From NCBI GenBank assembly GCA_029243245.1, contig JAQWSK010000009.1, positions 1-64,000 on the forward strand: a stretch of DNA of 64,000 nt, in the 5' to 3' direction. This DNA comes from Flavobacteriaceae bacterium. GTDB lineage: Bacteria > Bacteroidota > Bacteroidia > Flavobacteriales > Flavobacteriaceae. The position numbers and the translations under genes were made by a program. The notes beneath the pieces were generated by a model that saw only the letters and a program-made list of their open reading frames with translations, was not told the DNA's origin and made no database searches. Every line of letters begins with the position of its first letter. Position 1 is the first letter of the stretch. This document shows positions 23,232 through 34,446 of this stretch, in pieces.

Positions 23232-23568
23232 TTTGCTTTCTTTAAAGTCTAAAGAGAATTTTAAGTCTCTCTTTGAAAAGGGGAGTTTTTATAAAGAAAA
23301 CAACGTGGGGTTTCGGTGTTGGAAAGGAAAAAATCTTGCTTTTTACGTGGGGTATACTGTTTCTAAAAAACAATTTTCTAAGGCTGTAGATCGAAACTTG
23401 ATTAAAAGGCGATTAAAATCAGAGTTGCATAGGGTTAGGGGTTGTTTTATGAGTGCTTGCCCTCCCGGGGTTTATCTTTTTTATTATTTAGGAAACCAAA
23501 TTCCTCTTTCTTCTAATTTATCTAATGGAATAAAAGGGGTTATTAAAAAATTTATTGAAGAGACATAG
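23206..23568 (+). CDS. rnpA: Ribonuclease P protein component
   Basis: A 120-residue basic protein that binds the RNase P RNA and helps remove tRNA 5' leaders. The family signature is present as VSKKQFSKAVDRNLIKRRL, together with an N-terminal SLKSKENFKSLFEKG. The length is normal. The gene is not next to rpmH or dnaA, unlike in many other phyla, but starts inside the end of the M1 peptidase gene (26-bp overlap). Silent positions are strongly T- and G-rich, in contrast to genes beyond 24.5 kb. The next gene, rpiB, converges on it. Confidence 0.92.
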   Translation: MKRLIKKNSLLSLKSKENFKSLFEKGSFYKENNVGFRCWKGKNLAFYVGYTVSKKQFSKAVDRNLIKRRLKSELHRVRGCFMSACPPGVYLFYYLGNQIPLSSNLSNGIKGVIKKFIEET

Positions 23569-23582
23569 CGCTGTAAGGCGCT
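23567..23582. terminator. Short hairpin between convergent rnpA and rpiB
   Basis: AGCGC (23567-23571) and GCGCT (23578-23582) form a 5-bp GC-rich stem with a 6-nt loop at the rnpA stop. The following plus-strand sequence is only moderately T-rich, so a terminator role is weakly supported. Confidence 0.3.
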
Positions 23583-23610: not shown

Positions 23611-24042
23611 TTAATTACAAGGAATTTTATTGACTCTATCTTTGTGTCTTCCTCCTTCAAACTTGGTTGAAATAAATGTTTTAACCATTTGAATAGCTTC
23701 ATCCAAAGAAACAAACCTTGCTGGTATACTTATAATGTTAGCGTCATTGTGTTTTCTGGACAGCTTGGATAATTCATTATTCCAACAAAGAGCCGCTCGT
23801 ATGTTTTGATTTTTATTTGCTGTCATAGCAGCTCCATTTCCGCTTCCACAAATAATAATTCCTAAACTTTCTGGGGTGGTTGAAACATGGTTAGAGACGG
23901 GGTGAATATAGTCAGGGTAATCGACACTTTCTTCTTTATCTGTTCCAAAGTTTATAACCTCATTTTTTTGTGATTTTAAAAACCTTATGATTTCCTTTTT
24001 GTAATTAACTCCAGCATGATCATTTCCTATTGCTATTTTCAT
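23611..24042 (-). CDS. rpiB: Ribose-5-phosphate isomerase B
   Basis: A 143-residue isomerase that interconverts ribose 5-phosphate and ribulose 5-phosphate in the non-oxidative pentose phosphate path. It starts MKIAIGNDHAG, has the phosphate-binding Asp-His of RpiB, the YPDYIHPV block, the catalytic-site region IIICGSGNGAAMTANK and the C-terminal HNDANIISIPARF. In this protein the canonical active-site Cys sits in ICGSGNG, and a second Cys lies in ALCWNN. The length is standard. The gene is divergent from rnr across the long AT-rich gap. Confidence 0.93.
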   Translation of the reverse strand: MKIAIGNDHAGVNYKKEIIRFLKSQKNEVINFGTDKEESVDYPDYIHPVSNHVSTTPESLGIIICGSGNGAAMTANKNQNIRAALCWNNELSKLSRKHNDANIISIPARFVSLDEAIQMVKTFISTKFEGGRHKDRVNKIPCN

Positions 24043-24268
24043 GGTTTTTTTATTTACCTGGTTAATAATTTTTGTTATAAGTTTCTTATAAACTGTTAAT
24101 ATTTAAAATAAGTTGTTTTGTTTGTCTCTATAATTTAAACAATTATAAAAAAATTAGTTTTATGCAAATTAGTTTATTCTTTTATATTATTTAATTATTA
24201 AGTTTTTTCTGTCATTTTTAAACATATTTTTGATGTTTTATCAAAATACTTATTAACCTCTTTAATAT

Positions 24269-24304
24269 ATTAACAGATGTTAAAGAAACATGTAATCTGT
24301 TAAT
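24269..24304. repeat. 10-bp perfect inverted repeat, 16-bp spacer
   Basis: ATTAACAGAT (24269-24278) and ATCTGTTAAT (24295-24304) are exact reverse complements and contain two of the TGTTAAT motifs. The spacing fits a dimeric protein-binding site better than a terminator. Confidence 0.75.
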
Positions 24305-24306
24305 TA

Positions 24307-24334
24307 TTAGTGTATTATGTATATTAAGCTAAGT
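24307..24334 (+). other. dif-like XerCD recombination site (candidate)
   Basis: Aligned by hand to the E. coli dif I remember, the central hexamer TGTATA (24318-24323) is identical, the XerD-side arm TTAAGCTAAGT (24324-24334) matches 8 of 11, and the XerC-side arm TTAGTGTATTA (24307-24317) only 5 of 11. The location, in a gene-free gap where strand composition reverses, supports it. The weak XerC arm and AT-rich background lower confidence. Confidence 0.45.
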
Positions 24335-24484
24335 TAATATCTGTCTTATTAATGTTATTAATTTATATACAAAATAATAACTCTAAAAGTTGTTTTATAT
24401 ATTAACATACTATTATAATCACTTTCTTTTTTATTTAATTTTTAAAATATAATAATAGTGTTTATAGTTGTTGACAAAAATTTC

Positions 24485-24514
24485 TTGTTTTAATTTTTGT
24501 AATTCCTAATTTTG
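24485..24514 (+). promoter_or_regulatory. rnr promoter (-33 TTG, -7 TAATTTTG)
   Basis: TTG at 24485-24487, a 19-bp spacer and TAATTTTG at 24507-24514 match the Bacteroidota promoter model. The predicted start leaves a leader of roughly 12 nt before the rnr ATG at 24532. Confidence 0.5.
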
Positions 24515-24531
24515 AAAATAATAATAAAAAA

Positions 24532-26688
24532 ATGTCTGAAAAAAAGAAGGGACTTAAAGTTTACGAAGGAAAAATAATGCGTCTTTTCCAAAAAAACAAT
24601 AAAAAGCATTATAATTTCAAGCAAGTTTCTTCTGCTTTAGGCGTTAAAGACACTCAAGAAAAAAATCACATTATAAAAACCCTTAAGCAGTTGTCGATAG
24701 CAAAAAGAATTTTTCAAGAAAAGGAAGGAAAATATAGGTTTATAGAGAATGAAAGATTTTATGAAGAAGGTATTATAGAAATAACTAGTTCAGGAAACGG
24801 GTATTTATTAATGAGCGGTAAAGATATATTTATAGCAAAAAAAAACATTAATAAAGCTTTAAATAATGACACAGTTAGAGTATATGTTTTTAAAAGAAGA
24901 GATAGAAAAGACAATATAGCAGGAGAAGTGGTAGAAATTATTGAAAGAGCTAAAAACGAGTACGTTGGTATAATACAGAAACAAAAAGATTTTGGTTTTG
25001 TGCTAACAAGAGGACCTAAAATGTATACTGACGTTTTTATATCAGCAAAAGAAATGCTAAAAGCAAAAGAAGGAGAAAAAGTTGTTGTAAGAATTTCAGA
25101 ATGGCCAGAAAGAGCACAATCACCTTTCGGAGAGATAATTGAAGTGTTAGGTGATCCAGGAGACATAGATGTAGAGATGCACGCTATTTTATATGATTAT
25201 GGTCTTCCATATAGTTTTTCAAAAAAAATAATTGAAAGCGCTAAAAAAATTGATAAAAGTATAAGAGAAGAAGAAATTTTTAAAAGAAGAGATTTTAGAA
25301 AAGAGATGACATTTACTATAGATCCTATTACCGCTAAAGATTTTGACGACGCAATATCCTTTAAGGAACTTAATGAAGAAAAGTTTGAGGTAGGAATTCA
25401 TATTGCAGATGTTTCATACTATGTTAAAGAGGACACTATTATAGATGAAGAGGCTTATAAAAGAGCAACATCAGTATACTTGGTTGATAGAGTTGTTCCT
25501 ATGCTTCCAGAGGTTTTATCAAATAATCTGTGCTCATTAAGGCCAAACGAAGAAAAATATACTTTTTCTGCCGTTTTTGAAATAGATAAAAAAGGAAAAA
25601 TATATTCAGAGTGGTTTGGGAGAACTGTTATAAAATCTGATCACAGGTTTTCTTATGAAGAAATACAACAAGTGATAGAAACCAACAAGCCAAAGATTAG
25701 TAAACAGACATCATTAAATAGTGAAGCATATTCATTATCAAAGAAAACATTTAATGCCATCATTGAATTAAATAAAATAGCTAAGGTATTAAGAAATATA
25801 AGAATGGATTTTGGAGCGCTAACCTTTGACAGAGTAGAAGTTGGATTTAATTTTAATGAGAAAAAAGAGCCAGAAAGCATAAAATTAAAAAAATCAAAAG
25901 AAGCAAATAAATTAATTGAAGAATTTATGTTATTAGCAAATAAAAAAGTCGCAACCTTTATTAATAAACAAACAAAACCTTTTGTTTATAGAGTTCATGA
26001 TAAACCAGATAGTGATAAAATTAAGGAACTAAAAGAGCTAGTAAGTACCCTTGGATATAAACTAGAAACATCTGACAAAGAACTAACATCTTCATTAAAC
26101 AAACTATTAAATGATATTAAAGGAAAACCAGAGCAAAACATGATAGATACACTGTCGTTGAGATGTATGTCTAAAGCGGTTTATACAACAAACAACATAG
26201 GCCATTACGGATTAGCTTTTGATAACTATTCTCATTTTACCTCTCCTATAAGGAGATATCCGGACATTATAACTCATCGACTGCTTCAGCATTATCTTGA
26301 TGGTCAAAAAGCCGTTAATAAAGAGTTGCTGGAAGAAGAATGTATACATTCTTCTTATAGAGAACAATTAGCAACAAAAGCTGAGCGTGATTCAATCAAA
26401 TATATGCAAATTAAATATATGCAAAATAAAATTGGATCAATTCACTGGGGTGTTATTACCGGTGTTACAGAGCGCGGACTTTATGTTGAGATAAATGAAA
26501 ACAAATGTGAAGGAATGGTTTCGGTTAAAAGTATTGAAGGAGATCAATTTTTTTATGATCCCACAAAACACTTATTAGAAGGATATGTTTCAGGAAAAAG
26601 GTATAAATTGGGAGATCCAATTGAAGTTATAGTTAAAAAAGCTGATTTAGTAAGCAGAAACCTAGATTTTGCAATTAAAATAATTTAA
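24532..26688 (+). CDS. rnr: Ribonuclease R
   Basis: A 718-residue 3'-5' exoribonuclease of the RNB/RNase II family, which degrades structured RNA and helps rRNA and tmRNA quality control. Order: N-terminal winged-helix region (about 10-70), cold-shock/OB domains (about 75-230), catalytic RNB domain with DPITAKDFDDAISF (metal-binding Asp cluster) and the conserved NYSHFTSPIRRYPDIITHR, then an S1 domain (about 630-715, GVITGVTERGLYVEI). All catalytic aspartates are visible. Silent positions favour A, unlike genes left of 24 kb. The gene has its own promoter in the AT-rich gap and leads a unit with the next gene. Confidence 0.95.
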   Translation: MSEKKKGLKVYEGKIMRLFQKNNKKHYNFKQVSSALGVKDTQEKNHIIKTLKQLSIAKRIFQEKEGKYRFIENERFYEEGIIEITSSGNGYLLMSGKDIFIAKKNINKALNNDTVRVYVFKRRDRKDNIAGEVVEIIERAKNEYVGIIQKQKDFGFVLTRGPKMYTDVFISAKEMLKAKEGEKVVVRISEWPERAQSPFGEIIEVLGDPGDIDVEMHAILYDYGLPYSFSKKIIESAKKIDKSIREEEIFKRRDFRKEMTFTIDPITAKDFDDAISFKELNEEKFEVGIHIADVSYYVKEDTIIDEEAYKRATSVYLVDRVVPMLPEVLSNNLCSLRPNEEKYTFSAVFEIDKKGKIYSEWFGRTVIKSDHRFSYEEIQQVIETNKPKISKQTSLNSEAYSLSKKTFNAIIELNKIAKVLRNIRMDFGALTFDRVEVGFNFNEKKEPESIKLKKSKEANKLIEEFMLLANKKVATFINKQTKPFVYRVHDKPDSDKIKELKELVSTLGYKLETSDKELTSSLNKLLNDIKGKPEQNMIDTLSLRCMSKAVYTTNNIGHYGLAFDNYSHFTSPIRRYPDIITHRLLQHYLDGQKAVNKELLEEECIHSSYREQLATKAERDSIKYMQIKYMQNKIGSIHWGVITGVTERGLYVEINENKCEGMVSVKSIEGDQFFYDPTKHLLEGYVSGKRYKLGDPIEVIVKKADLVSRNLDFAIKII

Positions 26689-32574: not shown

Positions 32575-34446
32575 ATGTTTGATAAAAAATATGATGTTAT
32601 AGTGGTTGGAGGAGGGCACGCAGGCTGTGAGGCAGCAGCAGCAGCAGCTAACTTAGGCTCAAAAACATTATTGGTTACAATGAACTTACAAACCCTTGGC
32701 CAGATGTCTTGTAACCCCGCAATGGGCGGTATTGCTAAAGGACAAATTGTAAGAGAGATAGACGCTCTTGGAGGCTATAGCGGAATTGTTTCCGATTATA
32801 GCGCTATTCAGTACAAAATGCTAAACAAGTCAAAAGGCCCAGCGATGTGGTCTCCTAGGGTGCAGTCCGATCGAGCAATGTTTTCTCAACACTGGCGAGA
32901 TCTTTTAGAAAGAACTGAAAACCTGGATTTTTATCAAGAAATGGTTACTAGCCTAGTTGTCGAAAACGGAATTGTCCTTGGAGTTAAAACTTCACTGGAT
33001 GTTTCTATATATTCTAAATCAGTTATTCTTACAAACGGAACTTTTTTAAATGGCCTTATTCACATTGGTGAAAAAAACTTTGGAGGAGGGCGAGCTGGAG
33101 AAAAATCATCTTTAGGTTTAACCGCTTGCCTAGAATCCCATGGTTTTGTTTCCGGTAGAATGAAAACAGGAACACCTCCAAGAGTTGACGGAAGGTCTTT
33201 AAAGTATACAATAATGGAGGAACAGCCAGGAGATTTAGACCCCGGAACATTTAGTTTTTTAAAAAACACTACCGTACTTAAATCACAAAAAAGTTGCCAT
33301 ATCACATACACCAACGAAGAAGTTCACGATCAACTTAGGTTAGGATTTGAGAGATCACCAATGTTTAACGGCCTCATTGATGCTGTTGGGCCAAGGTATT
33401 GCCCGTCTATAGAGGATAAAATTCACAGATTTGCTGACAAGTCAAGACACCAAATTTTTGTTGAGCCAGAAGGGTGGAATACCGTTGAGGTTTATGTTAA
33501 TGGTTTTTCTACATCTTTACCGCAGGAAGTTCAATATGATGCTTTAAAAAAAGTTAAGGGGTTTGAGTCTGTCAAATTTTTTAGGCCTGGATACGCAATA
33601 GAGTATGACTATTTTCACCCTACCCAGTTAAAAACTAGTTTAGAGACTAAGAATATTGAACGTTTGTTTTTTGCAGGCCAAATTAATGGAACCACAGGTT
33701 ATGAAGAGGCTGCTGCTCAAGGAATAATGGCTGGAATAAATGCAAATTTGAAATGTAATGAATCAGATCCATTTGTATTGAAGAGAAATGAAGCCTATAT
33801 AGGCGTTTTAATTGATGATTTAGTTGTTAAAGGAACAGAAGAACCATACAGAATGTTTACCTCAAGAGCGGAATACAGGACCTTGCTGCGTCAGGATAAC
33901 GCCGATGAACGCCTCACGCCTAAATCCTTCAAGCTAGGACTAGCTAATTCACAAAGAATGAAGACCCTTGATGATAGAATAAGCTCTACCAATAAGATGA
34001 TCGGTTTTTATAATAAAACTGGCTTTGACCCAAAAAACTTAAACTCAATATTAAAATTAAAAAAGTCATCACCGGTAAAACAATCAGCAAGGCTCTCTAA
34101 AATTCTTGCAAGGCCAAACATAGATACTACTGACCTAACAAAGCTAAGTTCTGTTAAGGAGTTTATTGAAAAACAAAAAATATCTAAAAGTGCTTTAGAA
34201 CAAGCAGAAATTCAAATCAAATATTCTGGATACATCGAGAAAGAAAAGCTAATGGCAGATAAAATACAAAGATTAGAAAATATTTCTATTCCTATTAATT
34301 TTAATTACAACCAACTTGCCTCGCTTTCAAGTGAGGCCAAAGAAAAACTTAATAAAATATTACCACAAACACTATCTCAGGCAAGTAGAATTAGCGGTAT
34401 TAATCCAAGCGACATAAGTGTATTATTGGTCGCATTAGGAAGGTAA
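32575..34446 (+). CDS. mnmG: tRNA uridine-5-carboxymethylaminomethyl modification enzyme MnmG
   Basis: A 623-residue FAD enzyme (GidA) that, with MnmE, modifies wobble uridine 34 of several tRNAs. The FAD motif [12 protein letters not shown] sits at residues 10-21, followed by the family blocks [31 protein letters not shown] and a second nucleotide-binding motif [16 protein letters not shown]. The C-terminal helical domain that contacts MnmE and tRNA is complete. The length is normal. The stop codon TAA overlaps the following ATG by one base, and parS-like sites lie directly at both ends of the gene. Confidence 0.97.

Follow-up and report, generated by a model that had tools for sequence, protein, structure and literature searches.

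The window analysed here, a stretch of 64,000 nucleotides, contains a 489-bp gap at 24043–24531 between the divergently oriented genes rpiB and rnr, just where a preliminary description of this DNA had placed it. As that description also stated, the gap is the only stretch longer than 300 bp in the window that is free of ORFs of at least 80 aa (counted mechanically) and of tRNAs, the next longest measuring 288 bp. Its AT content of 84.7% compares with 77.9% in the AT-richest non-overlapping 489-bp segment. An RNA element was dropped as a reading of the gap, since Rfam at gathering scores gave no match in it. Phage-related sequence was dropped as well, the stretch from rpiB to rnr being without a megablast match in 'phages', and so was a second copy of the gap, a search of the genome having returned the gap itself only. 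Further to the left, a bidirectional terminator-like hairpin is located at 23567–23582, between the convergent genes rnpA (+) and rpiB (–). The features to which we refer are the following.

23611–24042, minus strand: rpiB (Pfam LacAB_rpiB), left neighbour of the gap
24043–24531, no strand assigned: putative chromosomal oriC, 489 bp, 84.7% AT, proposed from the base composition, the box cluster, the retention of the gap in relatives and the skew of complete relatives
24094–24101, minus strand: DnaA-box-like site of the TATNAACA class, reading TGTTAATA on the plus strand, kept in most, not all, of eight aligned gaps
24268–24283, no strand assigned: inverted pair, box TATTAACA at 24268–24275 (+) facing the half-site TGTTAA at 24278–24283
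24269–24278 and 24295–24304, no strand assigned: arms of a 10-bp perfect inverted repeat, two box-like sites in opposite orientation
24400–24407, plus strand: DnaA-box-like site TATTAACA of the proposed unwinding module
24408–24424, plus strand: candidate DnaA-trio-like unwinding element, a 2-bp spacer followed by CTATTAT and a triplet-like AT-rich run towards rnr
24459–24466, minus strand: DnaA-box-like site, TGTTTATA on the plus strand
24532–26688, plus strand: rnr (RNase R; Pfam RNB, CSD2, S1), right neighbour of the gap
32590–34437, plus strand: mnmG (TIGR00136), 8 kb from the gap

Within the gap, the 8-mer TGTTAATA occurs in three exact copies, at 24094 (+), 24268 (–) and 24400 (–), hence three times and in both orientations as first described, while the copies with one mismatch number six, where a single one had been reported. 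The early estimate that such a word would be expected well under once is borne out by base composition (0.17 copies) as well as by 2000 dinucleotide shuffles (mean 0.26), of which only 0.2% contained at least three copies (p 0.002), and three copies are found in none of 256 other 489-bp segments. Over the whole window (10 copies vs 6.7 expected) and genome-wide (207 vs 242 for the reversed word) TGTTAATA is not enriched, leaving its local clustering alone as the unusual signal. The 10-bp perfect inverted repeat announced beforehand is likewise present. The label 'iteron-like' used for these repeats was not retained, because the sites are irregularly spaced, occur in both orientations and are not arranged in tandem. 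Direct repeats in the gap form two-copy families only and the adjoining genes are rpiB and rnr, whereas a plasmid iteron origin is marked by direct repeats of about 20 bp in tandem array, next to a rep gene.

Read on the opposite strand, TGTTAATA becomes TATTAACA, a near match to the last eight bases, at the 3' end, of the DnaA-box consensus TTATCCACA as quoted in PMC8287927. Judged by their sequence, the repeats of the gap are DnaA-box-like sites of the class TATNAACA, which is represented four times here vs 0.60 expected (p 0.002). TTATNNACA occurs once (0.55 expected), and neither the full 9-mer TTATNAACA nor the strict canonical box TTATCCACA occurs in this gap, the latter having been dropped as the gap's repeat on account of its zero count. 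With four copies of TATNAACA and none of TTATNAACA, the boxes of this gap are thus weaker than those of its relatives. We counted the same words in 30 stretches upstream of rpiB, our own included, 21 of which were cut at rnr and nine taken up to 1.5 kb; in these nine no rnr lay within the flank examined, so that any upstream DNA counted. Here TATNAACA reached 118 copies vs 15.4 expected, TTATNAACA 67 vs 6.7 and TTATNCACA 15 vs 2.0, compared with 28 vs 16.2 and 11 vs 6.4 for the reversed controls, and TATNAACA was absent from three of the 30 stretches (L021, L028 and L031). A weight matrix for the boxes, trained on the gaps of other genera, was then run over the own contig. At thresholds 7 and 8 the gap holds four sites, equalled by none of 1270 other contig segments, and at threshold 6 one other segment (at 76 kb, coding) ties with it, while at threshold 10 the gap has one site only and is ordinary, 166 of the 1270 segments doing as well.

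Comparison with relatives, proposed as a check in the preliminary description, revealed conservation of both the gap and its motifs. Among 80 named loci with an rnr relative, 67 carry a divergent rpiB upstream of it, separated by 432–2555 bp (median 1034); in the remaining 13, rpiB is absent from the stretch examined, which in seven cases includes 2 kb or more upstream. From the alignment of eight gaps, six from the own genus and two from other genera, only three clusters of at least five invariant columns emerge, namely ATTAACAG at 24269–24276 (seven of eight columns), ATTAACA at 24401–24407 and CTATTAT at 24410–24416. Invariant columns account for 19 of 40 positions within five box sites, the fifth of which (24278–24285) was picked after the alignment had been viewed, vs 57 of 449 positions outside.

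The two right-hand clusters combine to a core, ATNAACA-NN-CTATNAT (ATNAACANNCTATNAT), which in the own gap lies at 24401–24416. An initial, stricter regular expression asked for more than is present in the own genome and so matched few gaps; it was replaced by ATNAACANNCTATNAT as derived from the eight aligned gaps. This core is found in 37 of the 67 named rpiB/rnr gaps, pointing in one direction throughout, with no exact match in the other 30. A search of 60 genomes gave 74 matches, 19 of them 286–559 bp upstream of rpiB. These 19 gap copies come from 19 genomes, one per genome and including all seven of the own genus, and all 19 point away from rpiB; eight of them belong to the design set of aligned gaps and 11 do not, and the G004 match runs across two N in its spacer. 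Matches outside the gap occur as well: they make up 55 of the 74, about the number given by the reversed control (a hand-added total of 52), so that the core is informative through its position and orientation only.

The genome to which the window belongs is a 16-contig draft, with an own contig of 77.7 kb on which the skew is weak: third-position GC skew (GC3) averages –0.023 to the left and +0.052 to the right of the gap and the corresponding AT3 –0.118 and +0.046, while the part from 12 to 24 kb alone has a GC3 of +0.080. Raw GC skew of the window and of the relative G029 proved too noisy, and we therefore fitted GC3, corrected for gene strand, to 20-kb stretches sampled from four complete relatives. 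G031 was sampled at approximately even spacing, and G029, G020 and G027 more densely in the vicinity of rpiB. When candidate origins were scanned in 10-kb steps, the bin of rpiB ranked 1/354 in G031, 3/262 in G029, 2/394 in G020 and 1/405 in G027, vs 349/354, 233/262, 175/394 and 341/405 for the bin of dnaA. The own dnaA is a single gene on a different contig (C7), and in the complete relatives dnaA lies far from rpiB and rnr. A finer scan of three relatives, in 500-bp steps within 60 kb, has its best point within the gap in G031, about 1 kb from it in G027 and 4–5 kb beyond it in G020, where the fit loses 3.7 log units if the origin is set in the gap. The fit for G029 is weak (R2 0.109), with its optimum at 930 kb and the bin of the box cluster (990 kb) at rank 11/262. 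A turning point of strand composition near the gap is thus seen in the complete relatives, weakly in G029. A replication terminus would require a change from leading to lagging skew, the opposite of the sign found in the complete relatives, and is therefore disfavoured.

The same 20-kb stretches were searched for boxes. At least four merged boxes within 500 bp were present in only three of 76 stretches sampled from the four complete relatives, all three at rpiB/rnr, the gap of G027 being split by a stretch boundary into a portion with three boxes and reaching four after joining. In G029, 37 kb separate rpiB from rnr, and the box cluster adjoins rnr (L052, at 991.5 kb, and L082), which would also suit an operator of rnr. 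Such a reading, in which the gap serves as a large operator or double promoter of rpiB and rnr and its repeats bind a transcription regulator, can further draw on the fact that the promoters of both genes must lie in the gap and that many box-like sites are located upstream of rnr. However, in G038, a member of another family, a cluster of four boxes lies upstream of rpiB with rnr about 110 kb away, and the clusters of G029 and G038 taken together are tied to neither gene alone, arguing against a plain operator. An operator would moreover not predict a skew turning point near the gap in complete relatives, the repeated site resembles a DnaA box, and promoter-like sites in the gap stay at the level of chance (8 vs 8.4). 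We therefore consider an operator very unlikely.

Still less probable, in our view, is an origin close to the gap yet outside it, for example beside mnmG. Ori-Finder has placed oriC at mnmG in Mariniflexile litorale (PMC11278836, where the figure legend and the text label oriC and ter differently) and in Algorimicrobium (PMC12843772), and in G031, G020, G027 and G030 about 15–30 kb lie between mnmG and rnr or rpiB, the distance to rnr in G029 being about 285 kb. In G020 the skew hardly separates the two sites, the gap being only 1.6 log units better than mnmG, but in G027 and G031 the gap leads by about 21 and about 12 log units, respectively. The flanks of mnmG (1.5 kb on each side) contain none or one box-like site each in G030, G020, G027 and G031; up to four were counted in the mnmG flank of G038, in a tally which, as for G029, scores overlapping hits twice, while the matrix and the 20-kb-stretch tallies merge them. 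The published calls may accordingly mark the neighbourhood of the origin rather than its exact site. A merely fortuitous set of repeats in AT-rich intergenic DNA or in a decayed gene could account for sites that are few and degenerate in the own gap, 8-mers of such composition being common genome-wide, but it is hardly credible given three copies of TGTTAATA vs 0.26 in shuffles, conservation over genus and family and the fixed orientation of the core.

We conclude that the gap at 24043–24531 is very probably the chromosomal replication origin (oriC) of this flavobacterium. This reading is based on the cluster of sites, their conservation, the fixed orientation of the core and the origin-like skew of relatives. 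The preliminary description had considered a protein-binding array, be it an origin, a terminus or a large operator; an array of this kind is supported, and conservation, DnaA-box-like motifs and the relatives' skew favour the origin among the three. The gap unites an intergenic cluster of DnaA-box-like sites, weak here if the full 9-mer is demanded, with an AT-rich region suited for unwinding over its entire 489 bp.

From these features we infer binding by DnaA, the site at which the strands open and the start of replication in this organism, and propose a model in which DnaA, encoded on contig C7, would bind degenerate boxes of the class TATNAACA spread over about 400 bp, the counterparts of which in relatives would be TTATNAACA and TTATNCACA. 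The facing pair at 24268–24283 may nucleate the DnaA complex. A DnaA filament would most likely extend from the box at 24400–24407 over the adjacent CTATTAT-type triplet run, this box, spacer and CTATTAT being likely to constitute the unwinding module, and would open the 85% AT DNA for helicase loading on both strands. Domain IV of the own DnaA (L009), which could be matched to solved DnaA structures, reads DHAT in its DNA-recognition part where DnaA of B. subtilis has DHTT, and it is our guess that this change may go along with the relaxed box sequence. It is conceivable, and we put this forward tentatively, that a common origin architecture exists throughout Flavobacteriaceae, in which the origin is not linked to dnaA but sits at the rpiB/rnr junction and combines relaxed boxes (TTATNAACA in place of TTATNCACA) with a pair of boxes facing each other and one polar module, ATNAACA-NN-CTATNAT, of fixed orientation. 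A family-wide core with fixed polarity was not found in print among open-licence PubMed Central papers.

With the origin thus placed in the draft genome of a small marine flavobacterium, the rpiB/rnr junction together with ATNAACANNCTATNAT offers a portable oriC marker for drafts of relatives, which in many cases are rotated to dnaA. Such a marker would sharpen the growth rates estimated from ori:ter ratios in metagenome coverage and would help to correct origin calls set at dnaA or mnmG.

The oriC of the Escherichia coli type lies near mnmG/mioC and away from dnaA. The gap resembles it in that the origin is not at dnaA and mnmG is in the neighbourhood, and differs from it in being flanked directly by rpiB and rnr. 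At the level of the proposed unwinding module, the closest likeness is to the basal unwinding system (BUS) of Bacillus subtilis and others, described as DnaA-boxes plus DnaA-trios with the consensus trio 3'-GAT-5' (PMC8287927). Shared with the BUS are a DnaA-box-like site, a short spacer and an AT-rich run of triplet period in a single orientation, and the complement of CTA directly after the spacer gives 3'-GAT-5', as in the consensus trio. In contrast to the BUS, the box is TATTAACA instead of TTATCCACA, with three departing positions (ATATTAACA), the spacer is 2 bp long, and further triplets conform to the NAN rule only partly or, in several genomes, only with the register shifted. Inspected by eye and in a shifted register, 24400–24424 has the box no more than 16 bp from three or more 3'-NAN-5' triplets, an arrangement that easily arises by chance at 85% AT. 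The origin proposed here is a known kind of site, and a position at rpiB has already been predicted within the family: of seven circular Tenacibaculum chromosomes, six have their Ori-Finder origin next to rpiB and the seventh has it nearby (PMC9864904). The predicted oriC of Tenacibaculum is thus found in the same family, beside the same neighbour rpiB and away from dnaA, and consists, in the excerpted text of that report, of Ori-Finder calls without a description of box sequence or core, while the gap described here belongs to a marine genus of the uncultured type with small genomes.
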